Shown here in pieces: positions 9,283-33,676 of a stretch of DNA of 34,160 bases. The notes under the pieces are model-generated. The model was given only the letters and a program-made list of their open reading frames with translations. It was not told the DNA's origin and did no database searches. Made by a program: the position numbers and the translations under genes. The stretch covers positions 1 through 34,160 of the forward strand of contig NZ_SPMY01000074.1 of the NCBI RefSeq assembly GCF_012939955.1, read 5' to 3'. The DNA is from Candidatus Accumulibacter phosphatis. GTDB taxonomy: Bacteria; Pseudomonadota; Gammaproteobacteria; Burkholderiales; Rhodocyclaceae. Within the stretch, counting starts at the first letter, position 1; each line of letters starts with the position of its first letter.

Positions 9283-9565
9283 ACTGCTTGTTCGTCCGCG
9301 CGCCCGCCGCGACCTCAAGGAGATCTGGCGCTACACCGTTCAGCAATGGGGCGCCGCGCAAGCGGATCAGTATCTGTATGACCTCGACCGAGAGATCCAG
9401 GGGCTTCTGAAGTTTCCCGAGTTGGGAACGCCGTACGATCCTATCCGAGCAGGCTATCGGCGGCTGCAAGTGAAACGTCACCTGGTGTTCTATCGCCGTA
9501 ACGGTCAGCGCCTTGAGATCGTTCGCGTGCTTCACGACGCCATGGATGTCAAAAGCCACCTATGA
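9275..9565 (+). CDS. parE: ParE-type toxin (RelE/ParE fold)
   Basis: A 96-aa toxin. The pattern RPRARRDLKEIWRYT, then QWGAAQADQYLYDL, LLKFPELGTPYDP, GYRRLQVKRHLVFYR and a VLHDAMD ending is that of the ParE branch of the RelE superfamily. ParE toxins characterised so far mostly poison DNA gyrase. It starts inside parD (8-nt overlap), so the toxin is made only with its antitoxin. Unusually, the stop codon overlaps the ATG of the downstream recombinase by 4 nt (ATGA at 9562-9565), placing recombinase translation under the toxin-antitoxin promoter. Confidence 0.88.
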   Translation: MLELLVRPRARRDLKEIWRYTVQQWGAAQADQYLYDLDREIQGLLKFPELGTPYDPIRAGYRRLQVKRHLVFYRRNGQRLEIVRVLHDAMDVKSHL

Positions 9566-10572
9566 CCCGGCGTGATCTTGTCGAAGGATTGGACGACCAC
9601 CCCGTGAGCGACACCAGCCCCCTCCCCGCCCCCCCAGCCGTCGCTTCCCGGCTCCTGACCGCCGAACAGTTCCAGCGCCTGGCCGATGTTCCCCCCGAAA
9701 TCGAATGGTTCGCCAATCTCGGCAACAAGGCCACCCGTCGCGCGTACGAAAACGCCCTCGGGGATTTCATGAAGTTCACCGGCATCGTGAAGCCCGAGGA
9801 ATTTCGCACCGTGACCCGCGGCCACGTCATCGCCTGGCGTGACGACCTGGTGCAGCGCGCCTTGAGCGGCATGACCGTACGGCATCGCCTGGCGGCGCTG
9901 TCGTCGCTGTTCGAGTCCCTGTGCGAAAAGAACGCCGTGACCCACAACCCAGTCAAGGGCGTCAAGCGCCCGCCGGTGGAAAGCTACGAAGGCAAGACCC
10001 CGGCCCTCGGCGACCACCAGGCGCGCAAGCTGCTCGACGCACCCGACGGCGCGTCGCTCAAGGGCAAGCGCGACCGCGCCATCCTGGCCACCCTGCTCTA
10101 TCACGCGCTACGCCGCGAGGAGCTGTGCCGGCTGAAGGTCAAGGACTTCAAGCACGAGCGGCGCGGGGTGCCGCACCTCAAGGTGTTCGGCAAGGGCGGC
10201 AAGATCCGCTATGTCCCGCTGCACCCCGCGGCCAGCGGCTTGATCGGCGACTATCTTGAGGTCGCCGGGCATGGCGCGGACAATACGGACGCACTGTTCC
10301 GGCCCATCCGCAACAACTGCACCGGCACACTGGAAAGAGCGATCACGCCCGACGCAGTTTACAAACTGGTACGGCAATACTCAACGGCGCTGGGTTTCGC
10401 GATCGGGGCGCACGCGTTGCGGGCGACTGCTGCGACCAACGCGCTTGACCACCAAGCCGACATCGCCAAGGTGCAGGAGTGGCTGGGTCACGCCAACATC
10501 GCCACTACGCGCATTTACGATCACCGCAAGACCCGGCCGGAGGACAGTCCGACGTTCAAAGTCGCCTACTAG
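9562..10572 (+). CDS. Tyrosine recombinase/integrase, copy 1
   Basis: A 336-aa site-specific DNA recombinase of the phage integrase/XerCD superfamily. An N-terminal SAM-like core-binding domain (about 45-135) is followed by the catalytic domain with R184 (HALRREEL), K214 (GKGGKIRYVPL), H284 and R287 (HALR), H310 (LGHANIATT) and nucleophile Y319 (TRIYDH). All expected catalytic residues are present. The ATG overlaps the parE stop; GTG 9604 is an alternative start. An IHF-beta-like gene follows after 159 bp. A near-identical copy lies at 23227-24240 in the same orientation. It may catalyse excision or integration of the island, though no att site is evident. Confidence 0.9.
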   Translation: MTRRDLVEGLDDHPVSDTSPLPAPPAVASRLLTAEQFQRLADVPPEIEWFANLGNKATRRAYENALGDFMKFTGIVKPEEFRTVTRGHVIAWRDDLVQRALSGMTVRHRLAALSSLFESLCEKNAVTHNPVKGVKRPPVESYEGKTPALGDHQARKLLDAPDGASLKGKRDRAILATLLYHALRREELCRLKVKDFKHERRGVPHLKVFGKGGKIRYVPLHPAASGLIGDYLEVAGHGADNTDALFRPIRNNCTGTLERAITPDAVYKLVRQYSTALGFAIGAHALRATAATNALDHQADIAKVQEWLGHANIATTRIYDHRKTRPEDSPTFKVAY

Positions 10573-10694
10573 CGAATGCTCGCGTCCTCTATCAGTCACA
10601 AACCGCCACTGGGTTGTTGCTCTGATTTCCGCCGCGACATCCTGCCGACGTGCCTCATCGCGCCGGGGTCGCGCCGGGCGTTGTGTAGTTTGCC

Positions 10695-10708
10695 ACCGCT
10701 CCCGAGCG
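10695..10708. repeat. Short hairpin before the IHF-like gene
   Basis: CCGCTC-CC-GAGCGG lies upstream of a TAAAAT hexamer at 10720-10725 that ends 6 nt before the ATG. Copy 2 keeps the arrangement with one arm mismatch. No ribosome binding site is visible, so a leaderless mRNA is possible. Confidence 0.3.
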
Positions 10709-10731
10709 GAAGTGCCGCGTAAAATTCGCCT

Positions 10732-11016
10732 ATGATCCGCTCCGAACTCATCAACCGACTCGCTGCCCACTTCCCGCAGTTCACAACCAAAGATACTGAA
10801 CTTGCGGTCAAGGCCATTCTTGAAGCGCTGAGCAACACGCTGGTGAAGGGGGACCGCATTGAAATACGCGGTTTCGGAAGCTTCGGGCTCAACTACCGGC
10901 CGCCCCGTACTGGGCGCAACCCAAAAACCGGTGAGGCCGTGCGGGTTCCAGCGAAAGCTGTGCCCCACTTTCAGGCGGGGAAAGAACTGCGTACCAAGGT
11001 CGACTCGGGCAGATAA
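10732..11016 (+). CDS. IHF beta-subunit-like DNA-bending protein
   Basis: A 94-aa member of the HU/IHF family that closely follows the IHF-beta pattern: N-terminal helices beginning [10 protein letters not shown], a dimer core, then [17 protein letters not shown] and the DNA-wrapping arm [12 protein letters not shown], ending [14 protein letters not shown] bends DNA and is an essential host factor in many tyrosine-recombinase intasomes. Here the gene travels with a recombinase in both copies of the module rather than sitting in a housekeeping locus, so it may be a dedicated recombination accessory. It could pair with host IHF-alpha or act as a homodimer. There is no clear Shine-Dalgarno sequence. 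Confidence 0.88.
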
Positions 11017-11465: not shown

Positions 11466-14400
11466 ATGATTACTCTCGATACCCTCACGCCTGGTCTTGC
11501 GCTCACGGGACTTGAGCCCAGCGGCATTGGAAGCGTCATTGCCGTAGTTCCGATTGCCGACGGTGCGGTGCAAGTCATCTATCGGACGTCCGATGGTGGC
11601 GTCAAAGAGCGCCTGCTCAACCGGGTGGATGAAGCCACCCTGTCGATCGCCACCGTAGAACGGCCTTGGTCATTCGATGGCGATGGCGATGCGTTCAAGC
11701 TCACCGTCGAGGCGAAACGCATTGATCTCGCCTTTCTGTTCGACCCGATGATGGCCGTCCACACCTCAAACGTGGAGCCGCTGCCGCACCAGATCACCGC
11801 TGTTTACGAATCCATGCTGCCGCGTCAGCCGTTGCGCTTTGTGCTGGCGGACGACCCCGGCGCGGGGAAGACCATCATGGCGGGGCTTTATATCCGCGAA
11901 CTCATCATGCGCGCCGACGCCCGGCGTATCGTCATCGTCGCCCCCGGCAGCCTGGTCGATCAGTGGCGCGAGGAAATGTTCGAGAAGTTCGGCCTGGAGT
12001 TCCGTGTCTTTACCAGAGACCTGGAAGCTGCCACGCCAAGTGGCAATCCGTTTGAAGACATTGACCACCTCATCGTTCGCCTAGACCAGATGGCGCGCAA
12101 CGAAGAACTACAAGAGAAGCTCTGCGCTGCGGGATGGGACCTGGTTGTTTTCGATGAGGCGCACAAGCTCGCCGCCCACTTCTTCGGCAACAAGCTGGAG
12201 AAGACGGGCCGCTTCAAGCTGGCCGAGAAGCTCGGAGCGCAAACGCGCCATCTCTTGCTGATGACGGCTACACCGCACAACGGCAAGGAGGAGGACTTCC
12301 AGTTGTTCCTCTCACTGCTCGATTCCGACCGCTTCTATGGGAAATTTCGCGACGGCGTGCACAAGGTCGATTGCTCCGATCTCATCCGTCGCATGGTGAA
12401 GGAGAAACTGGTCAAGTTCGATGGCACCCCGCTGTTCCCTGAGCGCCGCGCATACACGGTCAACTACGAGCTTTCCAAGCTTGAGTCTGCGCTCTACGAA
12501 GCCGTCACAGAGTATGTGAAAACCGAAATGGGCAAGGCTGACCAACTCGACGGCAAACGCAAAGGCTCGGTGGGTTTTGCGCTCACAGCCCTCCAGCGCC
12601 GTCTCGCCTCCAGCCCCGAGGCTATCTTCCAATCGCTCAAGCGCCGCCGCGAACGTCTCGAACGTCGCCTGCGCGAAGAACGAATAGGCATACGCGGCCA
12701 GTCAATCCTCGCCGAAACTCTCGCTGAAGTGCCCGAAGACGACGACGACCTCAACGCCGAGGAGCAGGAGAATCTGGAAGAAACCTTGGTCGATCAGGCC
12801 ACCGCTTCGCGCAGCATCACCGAACTCGAAGGCGAAATCATCATCCTGCAATCCCTCGAACAGCAGGCCAGGGCGCTGGTCGCGTCCGGCAGGGATCGCA
12901 AGTGGGACGAACTCTCGCGCATCCTGCAAAACGAACCGCAGATGCACGATGCCGGCGGGCGGATGCGCAAGATCATCATCTTCAGCGAGCACCGCGACAC
13001 GCTGAACTACCTGCAAGAAAAAAATCGCCGGGGTACTGGGCAGCCATGACGCCATCGTCGTCATTCACGGCGGCGTACACCGCGATGACCGGCGCAAGGC
13101 GCAGGCGCTGTTTCGCTCCGACCCCGACATCCGCGTGCTGGTGGCCACTGATGCCGCCGGTGAAGGCATCAACCTACAAAACGCCAACCTGATGGTGAAC
13201 TACGATTTGCCGTGGAACCCCAACCGCCTCGAACAACGCTTTGGGCGCATCCACCGCATCGGCCAGCAGGAGGTCTGCCATCTCTGGAATCTGGTCGCCA
13301 AGGAAACCCGCGAGGGCGATGTTTTTTTCCGGCTGCTTGAAAAGCTCCAGGTCGTGAGCGAGGCGCTTCATGGCCAAGTCTTCAACGTCCTCGGTGAAGT
13401 CTTTGAAGACAACAGTCTCAAGGACATGCTGTTGGAAGCCATTCGCTACGGCGACCAGCCGGAGGTGCGCGCTCGTCTGAATCAGACCATCGACAACGTT
13501 CTCGACCGCGAGCACCTGATGACCATCCTCAACCGCGACGCGCTGGCTCAGGAAAGTCTCACTCCGGAGCGCCTGTTTGCGGTGAAAGAAGAAATGGAAA
13601 AGGCCGAAGCCCGCCGCCTTCAGCCGTACTTTGTCCGTTCCTTCTTCATGAAAGGCTTCGAGTCGCTGGGCGGCTCGATTTACCCGCGTGAGTCCGAGCG
13701 TTTCGAGATTACCCATGTTCCCGCTGAATTGCGTGAGCGCGACCGCCTCATCACCGGGCGCAATCGGCGCGATCTCGCGCCCGTCCTACGCCGCTACGAG
13801 CGGGTGTGCTTCACCAAGGCCGCCGTGCGCCCGACCGACCGCCCCGGCCTCGCCTTCGCCAGCATGATTCATCCCGGCCACCCGCTGATGCTCGCCCTCA
13901 GCGATGTCCTGCTGGAGCAGCACGCTAATCTGCTGCGTCAGGGCACCTTGCTGGTTGACCCGGCAGACGACGGCGATCAGCTTTCCTTGCTCTTTCTGCT
14001 CACCCACGAAGTGAAGTCCGGCGATGGGCAAGTCATTTCCAAGCGCCTGCAATTTGTTCGCGTCCTGCCCGACGGCAGCGCCACCTTTGCCGGTTGGGCA
14101 CCGCACCTCGACCTCGAACCTCTCGCACCGGCCGACCGCCCGCTCTTGGCTGAAACCATCGCTGCGCCGTGGCTCACCGCCGGGCTGGAAAATCGCGCAC
14201 TCGCGCTCGCCGCCCAGACACTCGTGCCTGAGCACTTCAGCGAAATCGCCGGACGCCGCATCGCCCATGTGGACAAGACCCTCGCCGCCGTCCATGAACG
14301 CCTGACCAAGGAGATCGATTACTGGTCCGACCGCTTCATCAAACTCACCGACGACAAGGCCGCCGGTAAAGACGTGCGGCTCAACCTCGAAAACGTCCGC

Positions 14401-14989
14401 CGCACCCTCAGCAATCTGGAAGCCCGGCTGGAGAGCCGCAAGAAAGAACTCCAGTCCATGCGCCACGTCACCTCCGCCACGCCGGTGGTGCTCAGCGGTG
14501 CGCTGGTCATACCGACGGGCTTGCTCCGCCGCTTGCGTGGCGATGTCCCTGCAGTGGGGGCATTGTTCTCTGCCGACCCGGCAGCCCGCTCGCGCATCGA
14601 ACAACTGGCCATGAACGCCGTGCGCCTCGCCGAAGAAGCCCGTGGTTGCTGCGTCGTGGATGTCTCGGCGCAGAAATGCGGCTGGGACATCACCTCATAC
14701 GCCCCCCGCCCCAGAGGGCCGCCTGTCCGAAGCCCGCCACATCGAAGTCAAAGGCCGCGTCAAAGGCGCAACCACGGTGACGGTGACCAAGAACGAAATC
14801 TTTGAAAGCTGGAACCAGGGCAACAAGTACCACCTCGCCATCGTGATCGTCGGCGAAGGTGACGCCATCGACGGCCCCTACTACGTGCCGCACCCCTTCA
14901 AGGAAGAGCCGGGCTGGGGCGTATCTTCAGTCAACTACGACCTAAAAGCGTTGCTGCTTAGAGCAACCCAATCGGAGAATAGTCTGTGA
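11466..14989 (+). CDS. SNF2-family helicase with DUF3883 domain, two frameshifts
   Basis: A large superfamily 2 DNA translocase of the SNF2/HepA group (COG0553-like), as used by DISARM (DrmD) and type 3 BREX (BrxHII). Motif I is [13 protein letters not shown] (about residue 129), motif II DEAH at 230-233, motif III TATPHNG near 266; the helicase-C half carries [12 protein letters not shown] and [10 protein letters not shown]. The end is DUF3883-like ([24 protein letters not shown]). The frame breaks twice: at an A7 run, 13018-13024 (first part stops at 13049), and at a C6 run, 14702-14707 (second part stops at 14805). Dropping one base at each gives about 1173 continuous residues. The stop overlaps the next start (GTGA). 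It probably moves on foreign DNA; activity depends on whether the frameshifts are real. Confidence 0.85.
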
Positions 14990-16374
14990 AGCTAACCAAA
15001 CTGCGTGTAGACAATTTCCGCTGTTTCGCCGCGCTTGACTTAGAACTGCATTCACAACTCACCGTTCTTGTCGCCGAAAATGGTCAAGGTAAATCGACCT
15101 TGCTGGATGCCGCTCGTATTGCGCTGTGGCCGTTTGTGAGTAGTTTTGATCTGGCGCGAAACGCATTTAACGACCCTGGCAACGCGATAGCAATTGACGA
15201 TGTGCGCCTGGTGAAACTCGACACTGGCGATATGGCTCGACAACTTCCATCTCGCGTTCAGATGACAGGCGATTTTGGCATCGGACAAGAAAGGACCTGG
15301 ATTCGTTATCGCGATAAAGAGGCAAAACTAACCAAAACGAAAGATGACGGCGATACCGGCTTTATGAAGCAATGGGCAGGGGCGATTCAGACACAGATTC
15401 GAGACCCAGCCAAGCCAACGCTTGGTCTCCCTGTATTTGGTTATTACGGTACGGGGCGACTTTGGGCACAAAAACGGCTAACAGAAACCACCAAGGGCCA
15501 GGACGACACACTGAAGACCGATTTCTATGTGCGGACGTTTGCCTATCGCAATTGTCTCGACCCAGCCTCGTCCTATAAGCATTTCAAGGAGTGGTTTACC
15601 TGGGCCTTCGAGAGTTATCGCGAAGCACAAATTAAGCAACTGGAAAATCGTTCGACTAAATCGGATGTGTCTGCCGCGCAAGAGCGCATTCTCGTTGTGC
15701 AGCAAGTCATAGATATTTTTCTGCGCCCAACTACCGGCTGGCATACGCTGGAATACAGTGTGAGCCACGAGAAATCACTCGTTTTGCACCATGACCAGCA
15801 CGGCACCTTGGAAGTGGATCTTCTGAGTGATGGCATTCGCAGCGTCCTGGCGATGGCGGGTGACATTGCGTACCGCTGTATCAAACTCAACCCGCATTTG
15901 GGTGGCAACGCTGCACGCGAAACCCAAGGCGTAGTCATGATCGACGAAGTGGATATGCACTTGCACCCGCGCTGGCAACAAGTCGTTCTTGACCAGTTGC
16001 AGCAGGCATTTCCACTCGTGCAGTTCATCGTCACCACTCACAGCCCGCAAGTGCTGAGCACCGTCAAGCGTGAAAACATTCGCGTGCTGGGACAGGATGC
16101 CAGCGGCGTGGCGATTGCCGAACCGCCGCTTGCCATGACCTACGGCGAACCTAGTGGCGACGTAATGCACAGCGTGATGATGGTAGACCCGCAGCCGCCG
16201 GTCATTGAAAAAGCCGACTTGCAGCGTCTGACTGCATGGGTGGATCAGGGTAACTACCTGAGCGCGGAGGCCAAACAGGTCATGCAAAGCCTCACTGCCG
16301 CGCTGGGAGAACAGCATCCGCAATTGCAGCGACTAAAACGCAGTATTCAACGTCAGGAGGCACTGAAGGGATGA
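14986..16374 (+). CDS. PtuA-like ATPase (Septu-type, SMC/ABC fold)
   Basis: A 462-aa ATPase of the RecF/SMC-like ABC class found in Septu defence as PtuA. The N-terminus is typical ([13 protein letters not shown]), with Walker A ENGQGKST at about residues 31-38, an LSDGIRS signature-like segment near 280, Walker B VVMIDEVDMHLHP with D320/E321, and an H-loop-like TTHSPQVL near 346-353. The start is GTG 14986 with GGAG at 14974-14977, overlapping the helicase stop by 4 nt. Its stop overlaps the HNH gene, so the two are stoichiometrically coupled. In Septu, PtuA forms an ATPase complex that controls the PtuB nuclease. No reverse transcriptase is nearby, so this is not a retron-type arrangement. 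Confidence 0.82.
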   Translation: MKLTKLRVDNFRCFAALDLELHSQLTVLVAENGQGKSTLLDAARIALWPFVSSFDLARNAFNDPGNAIAIDDVRLVKLDTGDMARQLPSRVQMTGDFGIGQERTWIRYRDKEAKLTKTKDDGDTGFMKQWAGAIQTQIRDPAKPTLGLPVFGYYGTGRLWAQKRLTETTKGQDDTLKTDFYVRTFAYRNCLDPASSYKHFKEWFTWAFESYREAQIKQLENRSTKSDVSAAQERILVVQQVIDIFLRPTTGWHTLEYSVSHEKSLVLHHDQHGTLEVDLLSDGIRSVLAMAGDIAYRCIKLNPHLGGNAARETQGVVMIDEVDMHLHPRWQQVVLDQLQQAFPLVQFIVTTHSPQVLSTVKRENIRVLGQDASGVAIAEPPLAMTYGEPSGDVMHSVMMVDPQPPVIEKADLQRLTAWVDQGNYLSAEAKQVMQSLTAALGEQHPQLQRLKRSIQRQEALKG

Positions 16375-17087
16375 GGGCCATTACCAAACAAGGCAATGGC
16401 GGCTATCACCTCAACCAGTCTCACGCCAATCCGCCACAAACCCATACGCAAGCCAGCAGCCGTTGGAGTCGCTTTGGTCACAAACAAGCGGTACTGCAAT
16501 CCCTACTTTCCGAGCAGTACCACCTGTGTTGCTACAGCGAGATTCGTGCCGATCAGGAAGGCTTGGGCTATCACATTGAGCATGTCGAAAACAAAAGCCA
16601 GAACCCATCGCATACTTTCGACTATGCCAACCTCGCCGCGAGTGCGCTGCGTAGCGATGATTTGCCGAATTTGAACAGAGGCGAAGCGTTTGCCGGACAC
16701 GCTACCGGAAAGCAGCAGGCATGCGATACCGCGAGGTTCATATCCTGTCATCAACCGAACTGCGCGCGCTACTTCGCCTATTTGTCCGATGGACGGGTTA
16801 TCCCCAGCCAGAATCTTGATGCCCTTGAGCAAGATCGTGCGCAATACACCATCGACACGCTCAACCTCAACAGCCCCTATTTGCTGACGCGGCGGCGGCA
16901 ATGGTGGAATGAGCTCGATTCGCTTTTCCAAGAACACAAAGCACAAGACTGGAGCCTGCCGCACCTGGCTGCTGTTGATCTTGTCCCTGTCGCCGGTGGC
17001 TTGAGTCGTTTCTTCAGCCTCACTCGCCAATTTTTCGGTCAAGTCGCCGAACAGACCTTACAGCAGTCCGCACCGGAACTCGTATGA
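16371..17087 (+). CDS. PtuB-like HNH endonuclease (TIGR02646-type)
   Basis: A 238-aa predicted nuclease effector. The core matches the TIGR02646/PtuB pattern: CCYSEIR at residues 53-59, [10 protein letters not shown] at 66-75 with H68 and H71, then FDYANLAAS, where Asn and the aromatic residues are conserved. A later C-x4-C pair (SCHQPNC, about 125-131) could bind metal. AGGAGG at 16355-16360 and a 4-nt ATGA overlap with the ATPase stop support the start. PtuB cleaves nucleic acid when released or activated by PtuA. Its position between helicase and methyltransferase genes suggests it supplies the killing or cleavage activity of the combined system. Confidence 0.8.
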
Positions 17088-19993
17088 CCCACCCGATAAA
17101 ATCACCCCGCAAGCTCATCGAAGTCGCCTTGCCACTCGATGCCATCAACAAGGCGTGTGCGAGGGAGAAGTCCATCCGGCACGGGCATCCTTCCACGCTG
17201 CATCTGTGGTGGGCGCGGCGACCGTTGGCGGCGGCGCGGGCGGTGATCTTTGCGCAGATGGTCAATGATCCCGGCTACCAGCAGGGCGGCGGGTTCAAAT
17301 ATGGAAAGAACAAGAAGGACGCCGCCATCGAGCGGAAGCGGTTGTTCAAGATCATCGAAGACCTCGTGCTGTGGGAGAACACCACAAAGGAGGAATTCTT
17401 AGAACCTGCCCGCGCCGAGATTCGCCGCTCGTGGCGGGAGGTGTGCGAACTGAACAAGGGCCACCCGCAGGCCGCCGAGTTGTTCAATCCCGACAAGCTG
17501 CCCGCCCTGCACGATCCCTTTGCCGGTGGCGGAGCCATCCCGCTGGAAGCGCAGCGGCTAGGGTTAGAGGCATACGCCAGTGACCTCAATCCCGTGGCCG
17601 TGCTCATCAACAAGGCCATGATCGAGATCCCGCCCAAGTTCGCGGGCAGGCCGCCCGTTAACCCGGCAGCAGTGAAGCGTGGCGAAAGCTCGGCTACGTG
17701 GAAGGGAGCCACAGGTCTGGCGGAAGACGTGCGCTATTACGGCGCTTGGATGCGCGAGGAGGCGCAGAAGCGCATCGGCCACCTCTATCCGCCGGTGGAA
17801 ATCACGGCGGAGATGACGAAGGAGCGGCCCGACCTCAAACCGCTCGTCGGCCAGAAGCTCACCGTCATCGCTTGGCTGTGGGCGCGGACGGTCAAGAGTC
17901 CCAATCCGGCGTTTTCGCATGTAGATGTGCCACTGGCGTCCACGTTCATTCTCTCCAGCAAGGAAGGGAACGAGTCTTATGTGGTGCCCATAGTGGAGGG
18001 CAACCAGTATCGATTCACTGTAAAGATCGGCACTCCACCACAGGGCGCAGGGCAAGGAACAAAACTGGCCCGGGGGGCGAATTTCAAATGCATTCTGTCC
18101 AATGTCGCGATGGAAGGCGACTATATTAAGTCAGAGGGAAGAGCCGGGCGAATGGGTGGAAAGATCGTGGCCGTCGTTGTTGATGGCCCAAAGGGTCGAA
18201 TCTTTATCGAGCCTACGCCAGCAATGGAGGTGTGCGCAAAATCCGCCAAACCCTCTTGGTCACCTGAGACATCACTCCCTGACGATCATCGAAACTTTTG
18301 GACGTTTAACTACGGCATCACCACATATGGAGGTCTCTTCACACTTCGACAGATGGAGGCCATGACGACCTTCGCCGAAATCATTGGGGAGGCGCGAACT
18401 AGAATTCGGGTTGATGCCCTAGCCACCGGGATGGATGACGGTGTTTGTCTTGATAAATCGGGCGAGGCATCTACGAAGGCCGGCGCTGTCGCTTATGCTG
18501 AAGCTGTCAGTGTTTACCTCGCATGCGCTCTGGGACGTGCGAGCGATTACTGGACGTCGCTTGCAACGTGGGAACCAGGCGGTGGCTTCGTTGCACATGG
18601 TTTCACGAAACAAGCGATTCCAATGGTTTGGGACTACGCAGAATCAAATCCATTTTCTGATGGCACGGGAAACTGGGAACAAACTTGCGTTAGCTGGGTC
18701 GTTCGTGTTTTACAGAATTTCACTCCTGCTGCAGGTGGGTTATGCAACCAGGCGGATGCGACCCGGCAGTCTTTTTCAAAAGATAAAGTGGTCTCCACTG
18801 ATCCCCCTTATTACGACAATATCGCCTACGCTGACCTTTCCGATTACTTCTATATATGGATGCGCCGCAGTCTACGAAGTGTCTTCCCCGAACTATTTTC
18901 AACAATTGCAGTTCCCAAAATGGAGGAACTCATTGCTAGCCCACACCGTCACGGCGGCAACGTTAAGGCTGAATCATTTTTCCTTAACGGAATGACGGAA
19001 GCGATGAGAAGAATCTCCAACCAAGCACACATCGCTTTCCCCATTTCAATTTACTATGCATTTAAACAGTCTGAGACCAAAGCCGAAGGGGGGACTTCTT
19101 CGACGGGGTGGGAAACATTCTTGGAAGCGGTCTTTCAGGCTGAGTTGTCGCTTTGTGGCACATGGCCGGTCCGGACAGAAAGAGTAAATCGCTCGGTCGG
19201 AATAGGAACCAACGCTCTCGCCTCCAGCATCGTCCTCGTCTGCCGTAAGCGCCCATCAGATGCGCCCTCCATTTCCCGCCGCGAGTTCATCCGCGAGTTG
19301 AACAGCGTGCTGCCCGAGGCGCTCGACGAGATGACCAAAGGTTCCGGTGAAGAGCGTTCGCCCGTGGCCCCGGTAGACCTTTCGCAGGCCATCATCGGGC
19401 CGGGTATGGCGGTCTTTTCCAAATACGCCGCTGTGCTTGAGGCCGACGGCTCGCCCATGAGTGTGCGCACAGCCCTCCAACTCATCAACCGCTTCCTCGC
19501 TGAGGACGATTTCGACGCCGACACACAGTTCTGCCTGCACTGGTTCGAGCAGTTTGGGTGGGGAATAGGCGAATCCGGAGTCGCTGATGGCCTGGCCCGT
19601 GCCAAGAACACCAGCGAAAATGGTCTCGTTTCGTCTGGCGTTATCTTCTGGAAAGGCGGGAAAACACGCTTGCTCAAGTGGGCTGAATATCCCACCGACT
19701 GGGACCCGCGCACCGACCTCCGCCTGCCCGTCTGGGAAGCCCTGCACCAACTTATTCGTGCCCTGAAACAAGGCGGCGAATCGGCCTCCGGCGCGCTCCT
19801 CGCCGCCCTCGGCGGCAAAGCCGAAGCCATCCGCCAACTGGCCTATCGTCTATATACCCTGTGCGAGCGGCTAGGCAAAGCTGAAGATGCCCGTGCCTAC
19901 AACGATCTCATCACCAGTTGGACCGGCATCGAATCCGCCGCCAACAGCGTGCCTAAACCTGCTGACCCGCAAGGGACACTCTTTGAAAGATAG
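17084..19993 (+). CDS. DUF1156 DNA methyltransferase (COG1743 / PglXI-like)
   Basis: A 969-aa adenine-type DNA methylase of the DUF1156/COG1743 family. The N-terminus carries the DUF1156 signature ([32 protein letters not shown]). Motif I is [14 protein letters not shown] at about residues 142-155, and the catalytic motif [15 protein letters not shown] lies near 573-585, with about 420 residues between them, probably partly target recognition. Family members modify host DNA and occur in type 3 BREX (PglXI) and in clusters annotated as anti-phage-associated with DUF499. The ATG overlaps the ptuB-like stop (ATGA). Base composition from roughly 17900 to 19240 looks less GC-rich than on either side. 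No frameshift is seen. Confidence 0.85.
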
Positions 19994-20005
19994 AGGACCC
20001 AGTTT

Positions 20006-22825
20006 ATGAGCATGAAACCCTGGCGCGAAGTCATAGTGCCGCATCCTGATGTGCTGAATGGCACCTTCCAGCAATCCGAGTTTGCCGCCGACCTGACCGC
20101 CGTGCGGACGGGCAGGGCAACCCCGGAATACGGCGACGCAAAGTCCTTTTACGAGCGTACTTTCATCACCGAGGGCATGGGCAAGCTGCTCACCCAGGTG
20201 GCGCAGCGGCTCAATGGCAAGGGCGGCGAACCGGTCATCCAGTTGCAGACCTCCTTCGGTGGCGGCAAGACGCACACGATGCTAGCGGTGTATCACTTGG
20301 CAAATCGCCAATGCGCGCTGGGCGATTTGGCCGGCATCCCGGCGCTGCTCGATCACGCGGGGGTGATGGATGTGCCGACGGCCAAGGCGGCGGTGCTCGA
20401 CGGTACGGCCCATGCCCCAGGCCAAGCGTGGAAGCAAGGCAAGCAGGCGATCCGCACACTGTGGGGCGAGATGGCGTGGCAACTGGGTGGCACAGAAGGT
20501 TTTGCGCTGGTGAAAGAAGCGGATGCCAGCGGCACCTCGCCGGGCAAGGATGTGCTGTGCACGCTGCTGACCCAGTGTGCGCCCTGCGTGGTACTGCTGG
20601 ATGAACTGGTGGTGTATATCCGCCAGTTTGTGGAGAGCCAGGCGCTCAGCGGCGGCACCTACGACAGCAATCTGTCTTTCATTCAATCACTGACTGAGGC
20701 GGCCAAGCTGGTGCCGAATGCAGTAGTGCTGGCATCCTTGCCGGAATCGAACAGCCAGGCCGGTGGGCCGCGTGGTGTGGCGGCATTGCAATCGTTGGAG
20801 GCGGTCTTCAATCGAGTGCAGGCGCTGTGGAAAACGGTGGCCCCCGAAGAGGCTTTCGAGATCGTCCGGCGGCGCTTGTTCGAGTCGATTCGTGACGCCA
20901 AGGCGCGTGATCTGGTGTGCCGTGCCTTTGCCGATGCCTATGTGGCCGAGGGTGCCAAGGTGCCGCAGGAAACGCAGGAAGCCCGTTACTTCGACAGGAT
21001 GGTGCAGAGTTATCCCATCCACCCCGAAGTGTTCACCCAACTCTACGAAGAGTGGACGACCATCGACGGCTTCCAGCGCACGCGCGGTGTGTTGAAACTG
21101 ATGGCCAAAGTCATCTTCCGCCTATGGCAGGACAACAACAAAGACCTGATGATTTTGCCCGGAAGTCTGCCGCTCTACGATGGCAGTGCGCGCAACGAAC
21201 TGGTCTACTACCTCGGCCCAGGCTGGGACCCGGTGATCGACCGTGACATTGACGGCGAGCGAGCCGAGACCACGGTACTGGAAACGAAAGAAACCCGCTT
21301 CGGTTCGGTGCAGGCTGCCCGCCGCGTGGCGCGAACGGTATTCCTCGGCAGTGCACCGTCATCAGTGACCACCCGACCCGGCATACGTGGCCTTGACCGG
21401 GCGCGCGTGCTGTTGGGCTGCTTACAGCCAGGGCAAACGTCCTCGCTGTATTCTGATGCGCTGAACCGGCTGGCGGATCAACTGCATTACCTGAATTCGT
21501 CCGGAGATAAGGCGCAGGAAGCAACGCGCTATTGGTTCGACACCCGCGCCAACCTGCGGCGCGAAATGGAAGAGCGCAAGAAACGGTTTGAAGACGGTGT
21601 GGTACGCGGGCGCATGGCCGATATTCTCAAGCGACTTACCAGCAACGCGGCGTTCTTCGATGGCACCCATATTTTTACCCCGCACAGCGATGTGCCGGAT
21701 GACAGTGCGCTGCGGCTGATTGTGTTGCCGCCTGAACAGTTCTTCTCGCGTGAAGAGTCTCGCGCTGCCTTTGAGGGCGTGCTTGAGCACGTCAGGAGCC
21801 ACGGCACCACGCCTAGGTATCGCGGCAACCGTTTACTTTTCCTTGCGCCGGATCACGGTGCGCTGACCCGACTGCGCGATTGCATCCGGGTGTCACTGGC
21901 CTGGAACTCCATCATCGAAGAGTGGCGGCAAATCGACTGACGCTAGACAATCTCCAAACGAACCAAGCCAAGAAGGAACTGACGACAGCAGAGGACGTGC
22001 TGCCGCGTGTGGCGCGGGAGTGCTATAAGTGGTTGCTCTGCCCGACGCAGGATACGCCGACCGCAGCCAAACCAACGGTGGAGGTGTTCCCGCTCAATAC
22101 CGGCGGCGCGGCGCTGGGGCCCGAGATCGAGCGGGTGTGCATCGACAACGTGCTGGTGATCACGATCTGGTCGCCAATCCATCTGCGTGATGAGTTAAAG
22201 AAGCTTTACTGGAAGGCAGGCAAATCAGCCATTGGCGGCATGGCTTTCTGGGAAGACACGCTGCGCTACCTCTATTTGCCACGCTTGAAGAACCGCCAAG
22301 TTCTGGAGCAAGCCATTGTCAAAGGCGCAGGCAGCCGAGATTTTTTTGGCACGTCTTACGGTCAGCATGAAGGCAAGTTCGACGGCTTCAAAGTCGGCGA
22401 TGCCAATGTGCAACTGGACGACACGCTGCTGCTGATTGAACCCGATGCCGCCAAGGCGTATGAGGCGGCGCTTCCGCCTGGCCCAACACCGCCGGGGGGG
22501 GGCGGGGCCGGGTCCACTTCCGCCTGGGCCGGGACCGAAACCACCCGCACCTGTGCCGCCAGGACCGATACCGCCCGGATCCGCGCCAACGCCCAAGCAC
22601 CGCGCTTTCCACGGCAACGTCGCCATCAACGCTTCGACGGCCAGAGTGCGGTTGGTTCAGGTGGCGGAGGAGATCATCGCCGTGCTCGTCGCCGACCCCA
22701 ATGCGGACATCAAGATTACGCTGGAAATCCAAGTTGGCTTTCCGTCCGGCGCGTCAGATCAAACCAAACGGGCTGTCACGGAGAACGCGAAGATGCTGGG
22801 CTTTAAGAATGCGGATTGGGAGTAA
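20006..22825 (+). CDS. DUF499 AAA-type ATPase (BrxC/PglY-like), two frameshifts
   Basis: A large P-loop ATPase of the DUF499 family, to which BREX BrxC/PglY belongs. Walker A lies in [17 protein letters not shown] (about 80-95) and Walker B in [15 protein letters not shown] (about 194-208). It starts 12 nt after the methyltransferase stop. The first frame ends at 21940, but homologous-looking sequence continues in another frame ([17 protein letters not shown]) if one A is added at the AAA tract 21930-21932. That frame in turn fails at a G9 run, 22494-22502, where a proline/glycine linker leads to a small C-terminal domain ending at 22825. Repaired, the product is about 939 aa with a multiple-of-three length. 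It presumably powers assembly or DNA handling with the methylase and helicase. Confidence 0.82.
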
Positions 22826-23226
22826 AGCGTGATGACTTATCACAGGTTGATGCCACTGTCGGCAATGTGGAAGATGCGGACTGGAAGACCTGCGCTTCGG
22901 TTCTGAACGGGACTTACCGATATATCTCCAAGTCCAAAATGGCTCCAGCCGCTGCGCAGGCGCCGGTCAGTCTGGAATGCTGACATAGTATAGCGAATGT
23001 CGGCTTCTATTTTCCTTCACCCGCGCGTAAGGGTCGGTGGCAGCCGACCACCTCGCAATCCCTGCCGCATACAACGCGCCGCTTTTGGGGCGCTGCAGCA
23101 TGGCAGGAAGGCAGTCCCCGAAAATTTGATGCCCGGTCTTGCCATGAGCCCCCCCAACATTCTTATCGCCTAGCGCCGCTCCCTCTTAGCGTGCAATTTG
23201 TCCCTTTTCGTGAGCCGACCCCATCT
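22826..23226. other. Junction between defence operon and recombinase copy 2
   Basis: No full gene. An open frame without an ATG runs from about 22807 to TGA 22981-22983 (TTG 22816 is a possible start) and encodes a protein-like tail, NVEDADWKTCASVLNGTYRY and on to QAPVSLEC. It could be a very small protein or the end of a lost gene. A dyad GGTCGG-N6-CCGACC at 23032-23049 has no T-run. Confidence 0.35.
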
Positions 23227-24240
23227 ATGACCCGGCGTGATCTTGCCGAAGGATTGGACGATCTTCCCGTGAGCGACACAAACCCCCTCCCCGTCCTCCC
23301 GGCCGTTGCTTCCCGGCTCCTGACCGCCGAACAGTTCCAGCGCCTGGCCGATGTTCCCCCCGAAATCGAATGGTTCGCCAATCTCGGCAACAAGGCCACC
23401 CGCCGCGCCTACGAAAACGCCCTCGGGGATTTCATGAAGTTCACCGGCATCGTGAAGCCCGAGGAATTTCGCGGCGTGACCCGCGCCCACGTCATCGCCT
23501 GGCGCGACGACCTGGTGCAGCGCGCCTTGAGCGGCATGACGGTACGGCATCGCCTGGCGGCGCTGTCGTCGCTGTTCGAGTCCCTGTGCGAGAAGAACGC
23601 CGTGACCCATAACCCGGTCAAGGGCGTCAAGCGCCCGCCGGTGGAAAGCTACGAAGGCAAGACCCCTGCGCTCGGTGACCATCAGGCGCGCAAGCTGCTG
23701 GACGCGCCCGACGGCGTGTCACTCAAGGGCAAGCGCGACCGCGCCATCCTGGCCACCCTGCTCTATCACGCCCTGCGGCGTGACGAACTGTGCCGGTTGA
23801 CGGTCAAGGACTTCAAACACGAGCGGCGCGGGGTGCCGCACCTCAAGGTGTTCGGCAAGGGCGGCAAGATCCGCTATGTGCCGCTGCACCCCGTTGCCAG
23901 CGGCTTGATCGGGGACTATCTTGAGGTCGCCGGGCATGGCGCAGACGATTCCGGCGCCCTGTTCCGGCCGCTGCGCAACAACTGCACTACTGGCGGACTG
24001 GAAAGAGCGATCACGCCCGACGCGGTTTACAAATTGGTGCGGCAATACTCAACGGCGTTGGGTTTCGCGGTCGGGGCGCACGCGTTGCGGGCGACTGCTG
24101 CGACCAACGCGCTTGACCACCAAGCCGACATCGCCAAGGTGCAGGAGTGGCTGGGTCACGCCAACATCGCCACTACGCGCATTTACGATCACCGCAAGAC
24201 CCGGCCGGAGGACAGTCCGACGTTCAAGGTGGCCTACTAG
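23227..24240 (+). CDS. Tyrosine recombinase/integrase, copy 2
   Basis: A 337-aa near-duplicate of the recombinase at 9562-10572. About 17 substitutions and one inserted residue (NNCTTGG against NNCTGT) were counted by eye. The catalytic set is kept: HALRR, GKGGKIRYVPL, HALRATAAT, LGHANIATT and TRIYDH. I start it at ATG 23227 because similarity to copy 1 begins there; the frame extends to 23191 but the extra residues have no counterpart. No parDE genes precede it and no ribosome binding site is obvious. Changes cluster in the N-terminal 30 residues and near the segment before ERAITPDAVYK. Both copies remaining intact suggests recent duplication or continued selection. Confidence 0.88.
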   Translation: MTRRDLAEGLDDLPVSDTNPLPVLPAVASRLLTAEQFQRLADVPPEIEWFANLGNKATRRAYENALGDFMKFTGIVKPEEFRGVTRAHVIAWRDDLVQRALSGMTVRHRLAALSSLFESLCEKNAVTHNPVKGVKRPPVESYEGKTPALGDHQARKLLDAPDGVSLKGKRDRAILATLLYHALRRDELCRLTVKDFKHERRGVPHLKVFGKGGKIRYVPLHPVASGLIGDYLEVAGHGADDSGALFRPLRNNCTTGGLERAITPDAVYKLVRQYSTALGFAVGAHALRATAATNALDHQADIAKVQEWLGHANIATTRIYDHRKTRPEDSPTFKVAY

Positions 24241-24449
24241 AGAATGCTAGCGTCCTCTATCTGGCAGGACCGTCCACTGGGGTTTTGCACTTAATTTCCG
24301 CCGCGACATCCTGCCGGCGTGCTTGAGCTGAGGGGCGGAGCTCAACACCCGGAGTGCGTTGAAGTTGCCATGCGTCATCGATGCTGTTGCGCCTGGCGTT
24401 GTGTGGTTTGCCACCACTCCCGAGCGGAGGTGCCGCGTAAAATTCGCCA

Positions 24450-24734
24450 ATGATCCGTTCCTAACTCATCTATCGACTCGCTGCCCTCTTCCCGCAGTTC
24501 ACGCCCAAAGATACCGAGCTTGCGGTCAAGACCATTCTTGAAGCGCTGAGCAACACGCTGGCGAAGGGGGACCGCATTGAAATACGCGGTTTCGGAAGCT
24601 TCGGGCTCAACTACCGGCCGCCCCGTACTGGGCGCAACCCAAAAACCGGTGAGGCCGTGCAGGTTCCAGCGAAAGCTGTGCCCCACTTTCAGGCGGGAAA
24701 AGAACTGCGTACCAAGGTCGACTCGGGCAGATAA
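24450..24734 (+). pseudogene. IHF-beta-like gene, copy 2, with nonsense codon 5
   Basis: Aligned codon for codon with 10732-11016 over 95 codons, no indels. Codon 5 is TAA (24462-24464) where copy 1 has GAA, so translation stops after MIRS. The rest is otherwise intact, with about six changes (such as A to L at residue 13 and R to Q in the EAVQVP segment). No in-frame ATG follows early enough to restart a full protein. Inactivation by a single base, with the body preserved, points to a recent event. Copy 1 could supply the function in trans. Confidence 0.8.
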
Positions 24735-25305: not shown

Positions 25306-26343
25306 ATGACTGGACTGGTGGCACGCTGGCCGCAACAAAGCCCGCGAATCTTTCTAATCGCCGCAGCGGCGATCTGGTGGGGTTTGTACCAAACTCTCAT
25401 TCCGTTCTCCGAAGCCTTGGTCGCACTGTTTCCGGTCGCCCGCGATAGTCATCTCGGCGGCGCGCTGCAATTCTTCTTCTACGACACACCCAAGGTGTTG
25501 ATGCTATTGACCGGCGTAGTGTTTGCCATGGGCATGATCAACAGCTACTTCACACCCGAACGAACGCGTGCGTTGCTTGCGGGTAGAACTGAGGGTGTAG
25601 CCAACGTGATGGCCGCCACACTGGGCATCGTGACGCCATTTTGCTCCTGTTCCGCCGTGCCGCTGTTCATTGGGTTCGTCCAGGCCGGTGTGCCTCTAGG
25701 GGTGACCTTCTCGTTTCTCATTTCTGCGCCGATGGTTAACGAGGTGGCCTTGACCTTGTTGTTTGGCATGTTTGGCTGGAAAGTGGCGATGCTCTACCTC
25801 GGGCTAGGTCTGAGCGTGGCCATCGTGGCGGGCTGGATCATCGGCCGGCTAAAGATGGAAGACTATCTGGAAGACTGGGTGCGCGACATGCCCAAGGCTT
25901 CGGCCCGATTCGAGGATTCTGGCGTGACGTTGGCAGAGCGAATTGAAGGTGGCTTTGCGGCGGTACGAGAGATTGTCGGCAAAGTCTGGCCATACATCCT
26001 TGTCGGCATCGGCCTTGGAGCCTTGATTCACGGCTATGTGCCGGAAGAATTCATGGCTTCCTTCATGGGCAAAGAAGCGTGGTGGTCGGTACCGTTGGCG
26101 GTAGTTATCGGTGTGCCTATGTACACCAATGCTGCCGGCGTGATTCCGATCGTCCAGGCACTGCTGACCAAGGGAGCCGCCTTGGGAACTGTCTTGGCCT
26201 TCATGATGAGCGTGATTGCATTGTCGTTACCGGAAGCGATCATCCTGCGCAAAGTACTCAAGATTCGCTTGATCGTTACCTTCATCGGCGTCGTCGCTAG
26301 CGGCATTCTGCTGGTGGGCTATGTCTTCAACTGGTTGCTATAG
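25306..26343 (+). CDS. arsP: ArsP/DUF318-type permease
   Basis: A 345-aa inner-membrane permease with about eight to ten hydrophobic segments. The diagnostic sequence PFCSCSAVPLFIGF (C113 and C115) begins a conserved stretch through PLGVTFSFLISAPMVNEVALT, and a second conserved loop VPMYTNAAGVIPIV lies in the C-terminal half. Family members characterised as ArsP export trivalent methylated or aromatic arsenicals; others are unassigned permeases. It is followed at 11 nt by a small thioredoxin-like gene, the common arrangement for this family. The 275 bp upstream (25031-25305) hold IS debris and no recognised regulator. Given the arsenic genes downstream, an arsenical substrate is likely, but other metalloids cannot be excluded. 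Confidence 0.75.
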   Translation: MTGLVARWPQQSPRIFLIAAAAIWWGLYQTLIPFSEALVALFPVARDSHLGGALQFFFYDTPKVLMLLTGVVFAMGMINSYFTPERTRALLAGRTEGVANVMAATLGIVTPFCSCSAVPLFIGFVQAGVPLGVTFSFLISAPMVNEVALTLLFGMFGWKVAMLYLGLGLSVAIVAGWIIGRLKMEDYLEDWVRDMPKASARFEDSGVTLAERIEGGFAAVREIVGKVWPYILVGIGLGALIHGYVPEEFMASFMGKEAWWSVPLAVVIGVPMYTNAAGVIPIVQALLTKGAALGTVLAFMMSVIALSLPEAIILRKVLKIRLIVTFIGVVASGILLVGYVFNWLL

Positions 26344-26354
26344 GGTAGATTGAG

Positions 26355-26591
26355 ATGAAAGAAATTAAGGTATTGGGTACAGGTTGTGCCAAATGCAAGA
26401 ACACCATTGCGCTGATCCAACAGGTGGCAGAAGCTACTGGCGTAGCGGTCAATATCGAAAAAATCGAAGAACTACGCGACATCACAAATTACGGCGTCAT
26501 GAGTACGCCAGCTGTCGTGCTTGATGGAAAGGTCGTGCATACGGGGGGTATTCCCAGCCGCGACAAGATCGAGCAATGGCTGAACCATTGA
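26355..26591 (+). CDS. Small thioredoxin-like redox-active disulfide protein
   Basis: A 78-aa single-domain thioredoxin-fold protein of the MTH895/TM0996 type. It has strand EIKVLGTG, active site C11-x-x-C14 (CAKCKNT), and the cis-proline segment GVMSTPAVVLDGKVVHTGG. Such proteins often follow DUF318/ArsP permease genes and may pass thiol-bound arsenicals or electrons to the two-cysteine permease; that role is inferred. The start is 11 nt after the permease stop. Confidence 0.85.
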   Translation: MKEIKVLGTGCAKCKNTIALIQQVAEATGVAVNIEKIEELRDITNYGVMSTPAVVLDGKVVHTGGIPSRDKIEQWLNH

Positions 26592-26702
26592 TGCGACGTC
26601 GAAATGTTCAAGGAACAAGCGGCTACGCCTTTCCTTCTCCGTGAGATTGCACCATGGGGCAAGAGAAGCACCGGAGCCGATTCCAGTTCAAGGAGGATTG
26701 CC

Positions 26703-26939
26703 ATGAGAGGCGCCGATGCCTATGTGCGTGCTCGAATTGACACCGATACCAAGGAGCGCGCCATTGTCGCACTGAAAGCAATGGACCTGTCCATTTCTGA
26801 TGCTATTCGCCTGTTGATGGCGCACGTAGCGGATGAGCGCTGCTTACCGTTTGAGGTCAAGATGAAGAGCGTGAAGAAGCGCAACTGGAAGCATGGAAAA
26901 GCCAGCGTCTCGACAGCGCAACCCACTGTAAGAGACTAG
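26703..26939 (+). CDS. Orphan RelB/DinJ-family antitoxin
   Basis: A 78-aa protein with the RelB/DinJ pattern: ADAYVRARIDTDTKERA ribbon and helix, LDLSISDAIRLL-like second helix (here MDLSISDAIRLLMAHV), then LPFEVK. This family neutralises RelE/YafQ ribosome-dependent mRNA nucleases and represses its operon. I chose ATG 26703 for its strong AGGAGG at 26691-26696, rather than an upstream ATG at 26604. No toxin gene follows: 26940-27131 holds nothing recognisable. It may be the survivor of a broken module, or it may act on a toxin elsewhere. The basic C-terminal tail is longer than usual. Confidence 0.75.
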   Translation: MRGADAYVRARIDTDTKERAIVALKAMDLSISDAIRLLMAHVADERCLPFEVKMKSVKKRNWKHGKASVSTAQPTVRD

Positions 26940-27131
26940 CGGAAGGCTGCCACAAGCAATCGAAATCTAACGCCCTGCTCAGTCTTTTCCTGGTCAGGTT
27001 CCATGCCCGGAAACAGAAGCGCCGTTTCAGCGCCAAGGTTTCGCGCTAGCCGAGAAGAAGACTACGGGGCAAGTGACACTGCTTTTTTTTGGGCGCTACG
27101 TCTTCGAGCAGGCAAAGAGAGAAAGCTCGTA

Positions 27132-28028
27132 TCAGCGGCGAACAAACTGAATGGGCTGTAACTCCCCAGCCGGGCTTTCAGGCTGAAAGGTGACATGATC
27201 GATCCCCTGGTCGCTGGCCACAGCTCTGAGCAAGTGCAGGGTTTGTGGCCAAGAGGCGAGATTGGCGACCAGAACATGGGCAGACAGGGCCAGTCGCTCG
27301 GAGGCGATCGGCCAGACATGTAGATCGTGTACTTCGCTGACCCCAGGTACTTCTGCGAGCGCTTGTCCGACCAGCTCGATATTCATCGTAAAGGGCACGC
27401 CATCAAGGGTGGCATGCAAGGCTTCGCGCAGCAGACCGACGCTGGAGGCGAGAATCAGTCCGCCGATCAGGATCGACAACAAGGGGTCAATTGGCGTCCA
27501 TCCGGTAAGCCAGATCACGACTCCTGCGGCGATGGCGGCCACCGATCCCAGTGCATCGTCCATGACGTGCAGCATTGCGGCGCGAACGTTCAGATTGCGC
27601 TCACCCCGTGAAAGTATCCACGCGACGACGAGATTGATCAGCAACCCGAGCACGGCGACGATGCTGACTGTTGCACCATTGATACTTCCCGGGTGCTGCA
27701 GACGTTGCCAGGCTTCGCTGCCGATGACGAAGACCACGGCCACCATGGAAAGTGCATTGATCAATGCGGCCAGGAATTCGACCCGACCCAAACCATAGGT
27801 ATGCCGGCGGCTGGGGGGGCGGGCTGCCAACCAGGCAGCCAAGGCGGATATACCGAGCGACGCGCCATCGGTAACCATGTGGCCGGCGTCTGCCAGCAAG
27901 GCCAAGGATCCCGAGTGCCAACCAGCAATCAGCTCGACTATCGAGAAGCCAAGCGTAAGTGCAAGGGCGAGCAGGAGGTTCTTACCTGTAGTGCTGCTGT
28001 GCGCATGCGCGTGATCACGTTCGCTCAT
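27132..28028 (-). CDS. Cation diffusion facilitator (CDF) metal exporter, ZitB/CzcD-like
   Basis: A 298-aa inner-membrane proton-coupled divalent metal antiporter with six predicted membrane segments. A short His-rich N-terminus (HAHAH) is present. The transport site is seen as H50/D54 in DAGHMVTD (segment 2) and H154/D158 in HVMDD (segment 5), the HD-HD set typical of Zn/Cd exporters. The cytosolic C-terminal domain has VSEVHDLHVWPI. It is the last gene of the minus-strand ars unit, 75 nt after the sigma factor gene, so it may be co-transcribed or have its own promoter in the gap. Its substrate is more likely zinc or cadmium than arsenic. Confidence 0.88.
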   Translation of the reverse strand: MSERDHAHAHSSTTGKNLLLALALTLGFSIVELIAGWHSGSLALLADAGHMVTDGASLGISALAAWLAARPPSRRHTYGLGRVEFLAALINALSMVAVVFVIGSEAWQRLQHPGSINGATVSIVAVLGLLINLVVAWILSRGERNLNVRAAMLHVMDDALGSVAAIAAGVVIWLTGWTPIDPLLSILIGGLILASSVGLLREALHATLDGVPFTMNIELVGQALAEVPGVSEVHDLHVWPIASERLALSAHVLVANLASWPQTLHLLRAVASDQGIDHVTFQPESPAGELQPIQFVRR

Positions 28029-28103
28029 GACAATCCCTCGGTGGTGTTCAGGGCAGGCGCCACCAACAAAGCGACGACCTGCGGGGCGATACCGTCAAGA
28101 ACA

Positions 28104-28640
28104 CTACAACGGTGGGCGCGGCGTAAAACAGCAGACACGACCGTCCTCATCGAAGCGGACACGACACGCTTTTATCATTCGCTCTTTCAGGCGTTTGCGG
28201 GCACGCTGAATGCGTGACTTGGCGCCAGCCAGCGTTATGCCGAGGCGATCCGCGAGTTCTTGTTGCGACAGTCCTTCGATGTCGCACAAGGTGATTGCCA
28301 GCCGATCGGCTTCGGCAAGTTCCGAGAGCACCCGGGGCAGACACCGGTTCAGGTCGTCGACTGCCGGGAGAAGTTCGTTCTGTGGGGCGGGTAAATCGTC
28401 CGGCAGTGGGAGGTTTTCACGCACTGCTCGTAGACGGTCGACCAGCGCATTGCGCGCCACGCGGAAAAGCCATGCCCGAGGGTCGTCGACTGCGCAGAAC
28501 AGTTTTCCTTGCATCAAGGCCTTGATGAAAACCTCTTGAAGTACTTCGTCCGCATCATCGCGACCGATTTGATGGCGCAGATAGCCACGTAACTGTGACT
28601 CGCACATCGACCAGGCTGTAAGCAGGCACGGAGTACTCAT
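28104..28640 (-). CDS. ECF-type sigma factor, SigZ-like
   Basis: A 178-aa sigma-70 family protein. Region 2 has DADEVLQEVFIKAL and PRAWLFRVARNALVDRLR; region 4 has EADRLAITLCDIEGLSQQEL, then LGITLAGAKSRIQRARKRLK, the -35-binding helix-turn-helix. The size and the short C-terminal tail with cysteines (ACRVRFDEDGRVCC) match SigZ-like factors. It starts 2 nt after the acr3 stop, so it is coupled to the ars genes. No anti-sigma gene is adjacent. The vicinal cysteines might sense metal or arsenite; that is speculative. Confidence 0.82.
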   Translation of the reverse strand: MSTPCLLTAWSMCESQLRGYLRHQIGRDDADEVLQEVFIKALMQGKLFCAVDDPRAWLFRVARNALVDRLRAVRENLPLPDDLPAPQNELLPAVDDLNRCLPRVLSELAEADRLAITLCDIEGLSQQELADRLGITLAGAKSRIQRARKRLKERMIKACRVRFDEDGRVCCFTPRPPL

Positions 28641-28642
28641 GC

Positions 28643-29704: not shown

Positions 29705-29705
29705 G

Positions 29706-31496: not shown

Positions 31497-31512
31497 AACT
31501 GGTCTCAGGCGC

Positions 31513-31878: not shown

Positions 31879-31916
31879 TTCGAGACTCCATCGAAAGTTG
31901 AAACACTGGCAAGAAA

Positions 31917-33586: not shown

Positions 33587-33676
33587 GTAGGCACTTCGTA
33601 GCATCGCGCCGGGGTTACTGCAGCCAATTTCGCGGACAAGAGCCCTGGTGCGCCGGCACCCCTTTGGAGGAACGCA

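Follow-up and report, generated by a model that had tools for sequence, protein, structure and literature searches.

The stretch of DNA analyzed in this work (hereafter, the window) comprises the entire contig NZ_SPMY01000074.1 (C81), 34,160 nucleotides in length, of Candidatus Accumulibacter phosphatis. Positions 11466..22825 are occupied by five co-directional genes of the forward strand, hmaA, ptuA, ptuB, hmaB and hmaC, which were assigned to a predicted Hma defense operon carrying a Septu pair inside it (Table 1). The GTG start codon of ptuA (14986) lies within the GTGA tetranucleotide that contains the stop codon of the helicase gene, ATGA at 16371-16374 is common to the end of ptuA and the start of ptuB, and another ATGA, at 17084-17087, is shared in the same way by ptuB and hmaB; the stop of hmaB (19993) and the start of hmaC (20006) are separated by 12 nt. 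An initial annotation of this DNA, made from its letters alone, had given the same genes in the same order and on the same strand, with the three 4-nt overlaps (GTGA, ATGA, ATGA) and the single 12-nt gap, and was accurate in all these respects.

Table 1. Features of the operon and of the flanking repeats, numbered from the first nucleotide of the window.
Feature	Predicted identity	Position	Strand	Evidence and remarks
HmaA	SNF2 helicase, C-terminal NOV_C/DUF3883 nuclease-like domain	11466..14989	+	PADLOC PDLC00659, E 3.1e-283 and 1.6e-254 (two large pieces)
PtuA	Septu ATPase	14986..16374	+	PADLOC PDLC00310, E 1.3e-182; frame unbroken
PtuB	Septu HNH nuclease	16371..17087	+	PADLOC PDLC00357, E 7.5e-132; TIGR02646 above cut-off; frame unbroken
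HmaB	DUF1156 adenine methylase	17084..19993	+	PADLOC PDLC00660, E 0; Pfam DUF1156; frame unbroken
HmaC	DUF499 ATPase, no HEPN domain	20006..22825	+	PADLOC PDLC00662, E 0 and 5.2e-61 (two pieces); Pfam DUF499 only
Left direct repeat		9556..11016	+	tyrosine recombinase gene 9562-10572 inside; Phage_integrase
Right direct repeat		23221..24734	+	tyrosine recombinase gene 23191-24240

Apart from the matches listed in Table 1, the Pfam search recognized SNF2-related and ResIII domains in the helicase, ABC-type AAA domains in PtuA and, in HmaB, a D12 adenine-methylase match barely above its cut-off; PtuB remained without any match in this profile search. The NOV_C/DUF3883 domain was seen on the intact HmaA homologue of a related locus (L023), the C-terminus of which aligns to positions 14705-14965 of the window at 91%, and it is present on both HmaA homologues scanned. 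The residues K36, D320 and E321 of PtuA are invariant in all 19 aligned rows, and so are H71 and N87 of PtuB in all 18. Such residues have been reported to be essential in a different Septu, and the Walker and H-N-H residues of the window pair presumably occupy the equivalent positions.

By their family matches, the first, fourth and fifth genes are hmaA, hmaB and hmaC, while the second and the third are ptuA and ptuB of Septu. The locus is a further example of a documented arrangement, Septu within Hma, and not a new kind of immunity. All three Hma homologues are present in the window, in the order HmaA, HmaB, HmaC found in related loci. With Hma (termed Type-1 BREX-related by Rakesh and Krishnan, 2026) the locus shares these three ordered genes, the DUF1156 methylase, the DUF499 ATPase, the SNF2 helicase with a C-terminal nuclease-like domain and the associated Septu type I pair. 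No decisive difference was found: HmaC of the window is devoid of a HEPN domain, which is common in relatives and was reported for 1370 of 2446 taxa (Rakesh and Krishnan, 2026). The adjacent PtuA ATPase and PtuB HNH nuclease are those of Septu type I, the gene preceding ptuA being hmaA and not a reverse transcriptase, but the pair of the window differs in its position within another operon.

The initial annotation had identified the methylase, ATPase and helicase as parts of type 3 BREX, with PglZ, BrxA and BrxF absent. Type 3 BREX does possess a related methylase, ATPase and helicase; the window, however, lacks PglZ, and the genes are instead the named Hma core, which has been described as consisting of ATPase, methylase and helicase only. 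The best PADLOC scores on the first helicase piece were 941 bits for HmaA against 282 for DrmD of DISARM, 208 for BrxH and 163 for DrmA. A PglZ-less type 3 BREX was ruled out by the far stronger scores of the Hma families and by the location of PglZ elsewhere in the genome, and DISARM was judged unlikely, as its DrmD and DrmA helicase profiles score far under HmaA. PglZ (PF08665), which might have lain close to the operon, is absent from the window, and its sole match in the genome is on contig C64, inside a separate BREX. Neither BrxA and BrxF nor DrmB and DrmC appeared among the best 25 PADLOC matches listed for each of the seven operon pieces, the other, flanking ORFs of the window having not been scanned against PADLOC. 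Thus, the recognition of the SNF2 DUF3883-type helicase, the DUF1156 methylase, the DUF499 ATPase and the PtuAB pair, the kinship with BREX and the absence of PglZ from the window all stand, while the BREX label is wrong and the claim of a single system, considered below, is not supported. The BREX of contig C64 (L114) comprises, in PADLOC order, PglX in two pieces, BrxC, PglZ, BrxD and BrxHI.

Published mention of Septu together with Hma dates back to 2021 (Payne et al., 2021), and a 2025 paper mentions 'Septu in Hma systems' as an example of an embedded system, citing Payne et al. (2021) together with a preprint of Payne et al. of 2024 (10.1101/2024.01.29.577857). Consequently, the 'hybrid' that the initial annotation presented as a novel arrangement was already on record. 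For cargo within Hma, the term 'Hma-embedded candidates (HECs)' is used in print, and since cargo representatives from the related loci match the PADLOC models HEC-02, HEC-05, HEC-06, HEC-08 and HEC-09, embedding in Hma has already been catalogued; the related loci hold HEC cargo in the same two gaps of the operon, and the cargo of the window is Septu. According to Rakesh and Krishnan (2026), the helicase is fused to a nuclease in 79% of taxa, and HNH nucleases linked with OLD-type ATPases occur in some of their BREX loci and relatives of these; the main text of their paper does not contain the word Septu.

The scan with HmaB yielded at least 580 confirmed relatives, the best 80 of which were kept as comparison loci (L002-L081), and a gap of no more than 110 nt between stop-to-stop frames was regarded as closed. 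The hmaA-hmaB gap was scorable in 68 of these loci (12 were not): it was closed in 22, contained PtuAB in 17 and was longer or otherwise filled in 29. Of the 80 hmaB-hmaC gaps, 29 were closed and 46 filled, the other 5 being not scorable. In these counts, L056, which has a PtuA-like ORF and no recognized PtuB, was scored as 'other', yet it is included among the 18 members of the PtuA group and the 19 alignment rows; L003 and L047, where the gene after ptuA falls outside the main PtuB cluster (cluster c8), were scored as PtuAB because the same HNH columns are retained. PtuAB thus recurs at this very position in a quarter of the scorable loci (17 of 68), a conservation of gene order beyond chance, so the order noticed in the initial annotation is one that recurs elsewhere.

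Cargo families seen at least twice were confined to one of the two slots, with the Schlafen-like family as the sole exception (1 in the first, hmaA-hmaB, slot and 7 in the second, hmaB-hmaC, slot). The PtuA group was found 18 times in the first slot and never in the second, the NYN-like family 8 times and never, the second ATPase group never and 16 times, and the HEC-02-like partner never and 7 times, this statement being dependent on the splitting, by a chosen score limit, of the large ATPase cluster c0, which is represented in both gaps (24 and 28). For the second-slot ATPase group, the HmaB tree (87 rows, FastTree) requires 13 changes, for the NYN-like family 8, for the Schlafen-like 7 and for the GmrSD-like 5; such counts do not separate gains from losses, and an early gain followed by many losses would also give slot fidelity. 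For PtuAB this is disfavored, because the PtuA sequences do not track HmaB.

The presence of PtuAB itself changes 13 times on the HmaB tree, 10 of the changes being forced by starred branches. In L023, with HmaA 93% and HmaC 89% identical to those of the window, hmaA runs straight into hmaB and PtuAB is missing. Considering these changes and the locus with the 93%-identical HmaA, PtuAB is, judging by the sequences compared, an exchangeable cargo. The HmaB proteins of L005 and L007 are 94% identical, and their PtuA proteins belong to different branches of the PtuA tree. The PtuA proteins of the window and L113 share 65% identity, and their HmaB proteins 48%; with L060 the PtuA identity is 46% and with the other 16 embedded copies 29-41%, although the HmaB identity to these 17 loci is 59-72%. 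PtuA occurs outside Hma as well: from a 398-genome sample, 30 of 51 places with PtuA were analyzed, and 28 of the 30 had no HmaA or HmaB within roughly 1.5 kb on either side (PtuB was found in 23 of the 28). The PtuA tree was built from 19 embedded copies and these 28, with the duplicates L082, L083, L115 and L116 excluded. The embedded copies cluster in it without forming a single clade, and the PtuA of L084 and L085, which have no adjacent Hma gene (L085 is at a contig end), share a small starred group with the PtuA of the window. On plasmids, PtuA was matched in 15 records, each at less than 60% identity.

The core of the operon is variable as well, within HmaB. Identity along the three Hma proteins was compared for 18 pairs of loci (13 loci in all), chosen for identities of no less than 88% in HmaA and 85% in HmaC and of less than 85% in HmaB; the pairs share loci and hence are not independent, and the upper limit favors divergent HmaB, three pairs that meet the HmaA and HmaC limits with HmaB at or above 85% being unused. 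Over residues 301-550 of HmaB, divided into five bins of 50 residues, mean identity was 0.34-0.64, and in the remaining bins of this protein it was 0.74-0.94; in the same pairs it was 0.87-0.99 in HmaA and 0.73-0.97 in HmaC, the last HmaC bins being unreliable due to a frame break and gaps. Between the window and L023, the stretch of low identity in HmaB spans residues 301 to roughly 650, with bin values of 0.35-0.66, and the DNA shows the same pattern. A target-recognition insert has been described in the methylase family of HmaB (Rakesh and Krishnan, 2026), and the variable middle fits a changing insert of this kind, with the helicase and the ATPase staying as they are. A variable HmaB middle beside stable HmaA and HmaC would suggest that HmaB carries the specificity for both marking and restriction.

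In the literature found on Hma embedding, in its accessible portions, neither the slot bias nor the turnover of HmaB is described, and the slot fidelity of cargo and the divergence of the HmaB middle are a less settled, perhaps unpublished part of the picture. Tentatively, at somewhat less than even odds, Hma operons might be two-slot exchange platforms, each gap having its own effector repertoire, with modules exchanged through recombination at the conserved termini of the core genes, and the HmaB middle turning over with HmaA and HmaC kept.

Taken together, these data are best explained by an Hma operon that houses a complete, co-oriented Septu module between hmaA and hmaB, with PtuAB as a second, largely autonomous layer of defense, a reading to which we assign a probability of about 0.8. 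The sequences establish the gene identities, the recurrent position, the repeated change and exchange of cargo and the retained catalytic residues of PtuAB; all biochemical steps, and any coupling or independence of the layers, are inferred as follows. HmaB would methylate a short site, thereby marking self, and supply the sequence specificity; HmaC may assemble or load the complex; and HmaA would translocate on unmarked DNA and cut it by means of its C-terminal nuclease-like domain. PtuAB, expressed from the same transcript, would be an abortive nuclease, directed at tRNA or DNA and acting once the first layer fails, that is, probably, an autonomous backup. In two characterized PtuAB pairs, including that of retron-Eco7, the target is tRNA-Tyr.

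Several observations weigh against such autonomy. The 4-nt overlaps flanking ptuAB imply tight co-translation, which is expected too of one integrated five-gene machine, where HmaB would mark self, HmaA and HmaC would recognize and translocate, and PtuAB would be the obligatory nuclease. The repeated use of the same position agrees with such a machine, as do the clustering of the embedded copies on the PtuA tree (6 changes against a shuffled mean of 15, with 0 of 500 shuffles as low) and the weak correlation of PtuA identity with that of HmaB (rho 0.26 for 19 loci, a value reached in 100 of 5000 permutations). The clustering and the correlation make some co-inheritance or adaptation to Hma likely, although the former can arise from unequal sampling alone, as the embedded PtuA were sampled from many phyla via HmaB and the other PtuA from one phylum sample. 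Strict co-inheritance of PtuAB with Hma is ruled out by the HmaB and PtuA trees in spite of both. An obligatory role of PtuAB is, in our opinion, improbable, given that hmaA and hmaB are adjacent in 22 of the 68 scorable loci and separated by a longer gap or other genes in 29, that an HmaA 93% identical to that of the window exists without PtuAB, that both HmaA homologues scanned bear a NOV_C domain of their own, and that PtuA is found without an adjacent Hma gene. The proposal of the initial annotation, one system in which PtuAB cuts, is not supported for the same reasons: loci with similar cores differ in whether they carry the pair, the pair occurs without an adjacent Hma gene, and a C-terminal nuclease-like domain is already part of the helicase family. 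A looser coupling, in which PtuAB guards Hma, being quiet while Hma works and firing when a phage protein inhibits it, can be imagined by analogy with PARIS, which has been described as sensing anti-restriction proteins. ATPase-nuclease modules have been proposed as backup effectors, with PARIS discussed (Rakesh and Krishnan, 2026), and the location inside the operon would link the dose of PtuAB to Hma; nevertheless, PtuA is often found without an adjacent Hma gene, and several unrelated cargos share the slot, so that a specific sensing link would need many separate origins, which makes us consider a guard function rather unlikely.

The remaining difficulty for a Septu module housed in Hma is that the helicase and the DUF499 ATPase both appear broken in this assembly. 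Alignment of intact homologues revealed changes of frame near 13020 and 14710 in the helicase gene and near 21922 and 22500 in the ATPase gene, all absent from the initial annotation; the intact HmaA homologue of L023 aligns to the window in three frames with 91-95% identity, and the HmaC homologue of the same locus also in three frames. It could be supposed that the Hma part is decaying and that only Septu and an orphan methylase are still functional, since all four breaks of the operon are in hmaA and hmaC and none in ptuA, ptuB or hmaB, and the break near 21922 is away from a homopolymer. The other three, however, coincide with homopolymers of 6 to 9 bases (assessed by eye), and in the same assembly rpoB (contig C42) and two dnaE-like genes (contigs C76 and C65) are split between frames as well, rpoC being in one frame. 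Moreover, the codon differences between the hmaA genes of the window and L023, summed over three parts, comprise 334 synonymous and 66 non-synonymous ones, about 5 to 1. Because rpoB and the dnaE-like genes are also split and synonymous changes predominate in HmaA, sequencing errors, though not proven, are the likeliest cause of the four breaks. Decay, judged less likely after these three essential-gene families (rpoC, dnaE-like, rpoB) and the codon changes had been checked, is thus improbable.

The operon is located between the two direct repeats (Table 1), which match each other in two blocks, 93.0% and 94.6% identical. The recombinase is present in the genome in six close copies (93-100% identity), two in the window and the others on contigs C88, C109, C113 and C114. 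Five of the ten ORFs near these four other copies have a Pfam match, none of them to a defense family, and both ORFs scanned on C114 gave no match; mobility of the operon via the flanking recombinases is not shown by these data. More distant relatives of the recombinase (identity below 80%) were found on 133 plasmid records, and considering these and the copies in the genome, the contig may represent a plasmid, either free or integrated. To the left of the operon, an actin-like protein (ALP_N of Pfam) is encoded at 4879-5853, perhaps with a role in plasmid partition. To the right, an arsenic-related cluster occupies 25306-34160, with ArsP_1, an SBF-family transporter, ArsA and ArsD recognized by Pfam, and ArsC-like, GAPDH and cation-efflux genes by eye only.

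A second Hma operon was detected in the genome on contig C116 (L112:337-16255). Its frames are unbroken, its HmaC bears a HEPN domain, and its hmaA-hmaB gap is filled by TmtA-like and PDC-S02-like genes. A distant third match of the DUF499 ATPase is located at C73:3100-4973, in two pieces with 29-34% identity.

Two pairs of loci, the window with L023 and L005 with L007, have much of the Hma core alike and different cargo, and thereby offer a direct test of whether PtuAB is coupled to Hma or only shares its transcript. If Hma operons were indeed two-slot platforms, HmaB would set the specificity of marking and of restriction jointly, and recombination in the core genes would hold each cargo to its slot. 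Should the slot bias and the variability of the HmaB middle hold, they would point to a way in which Hma alters both its specificity and its effectors.

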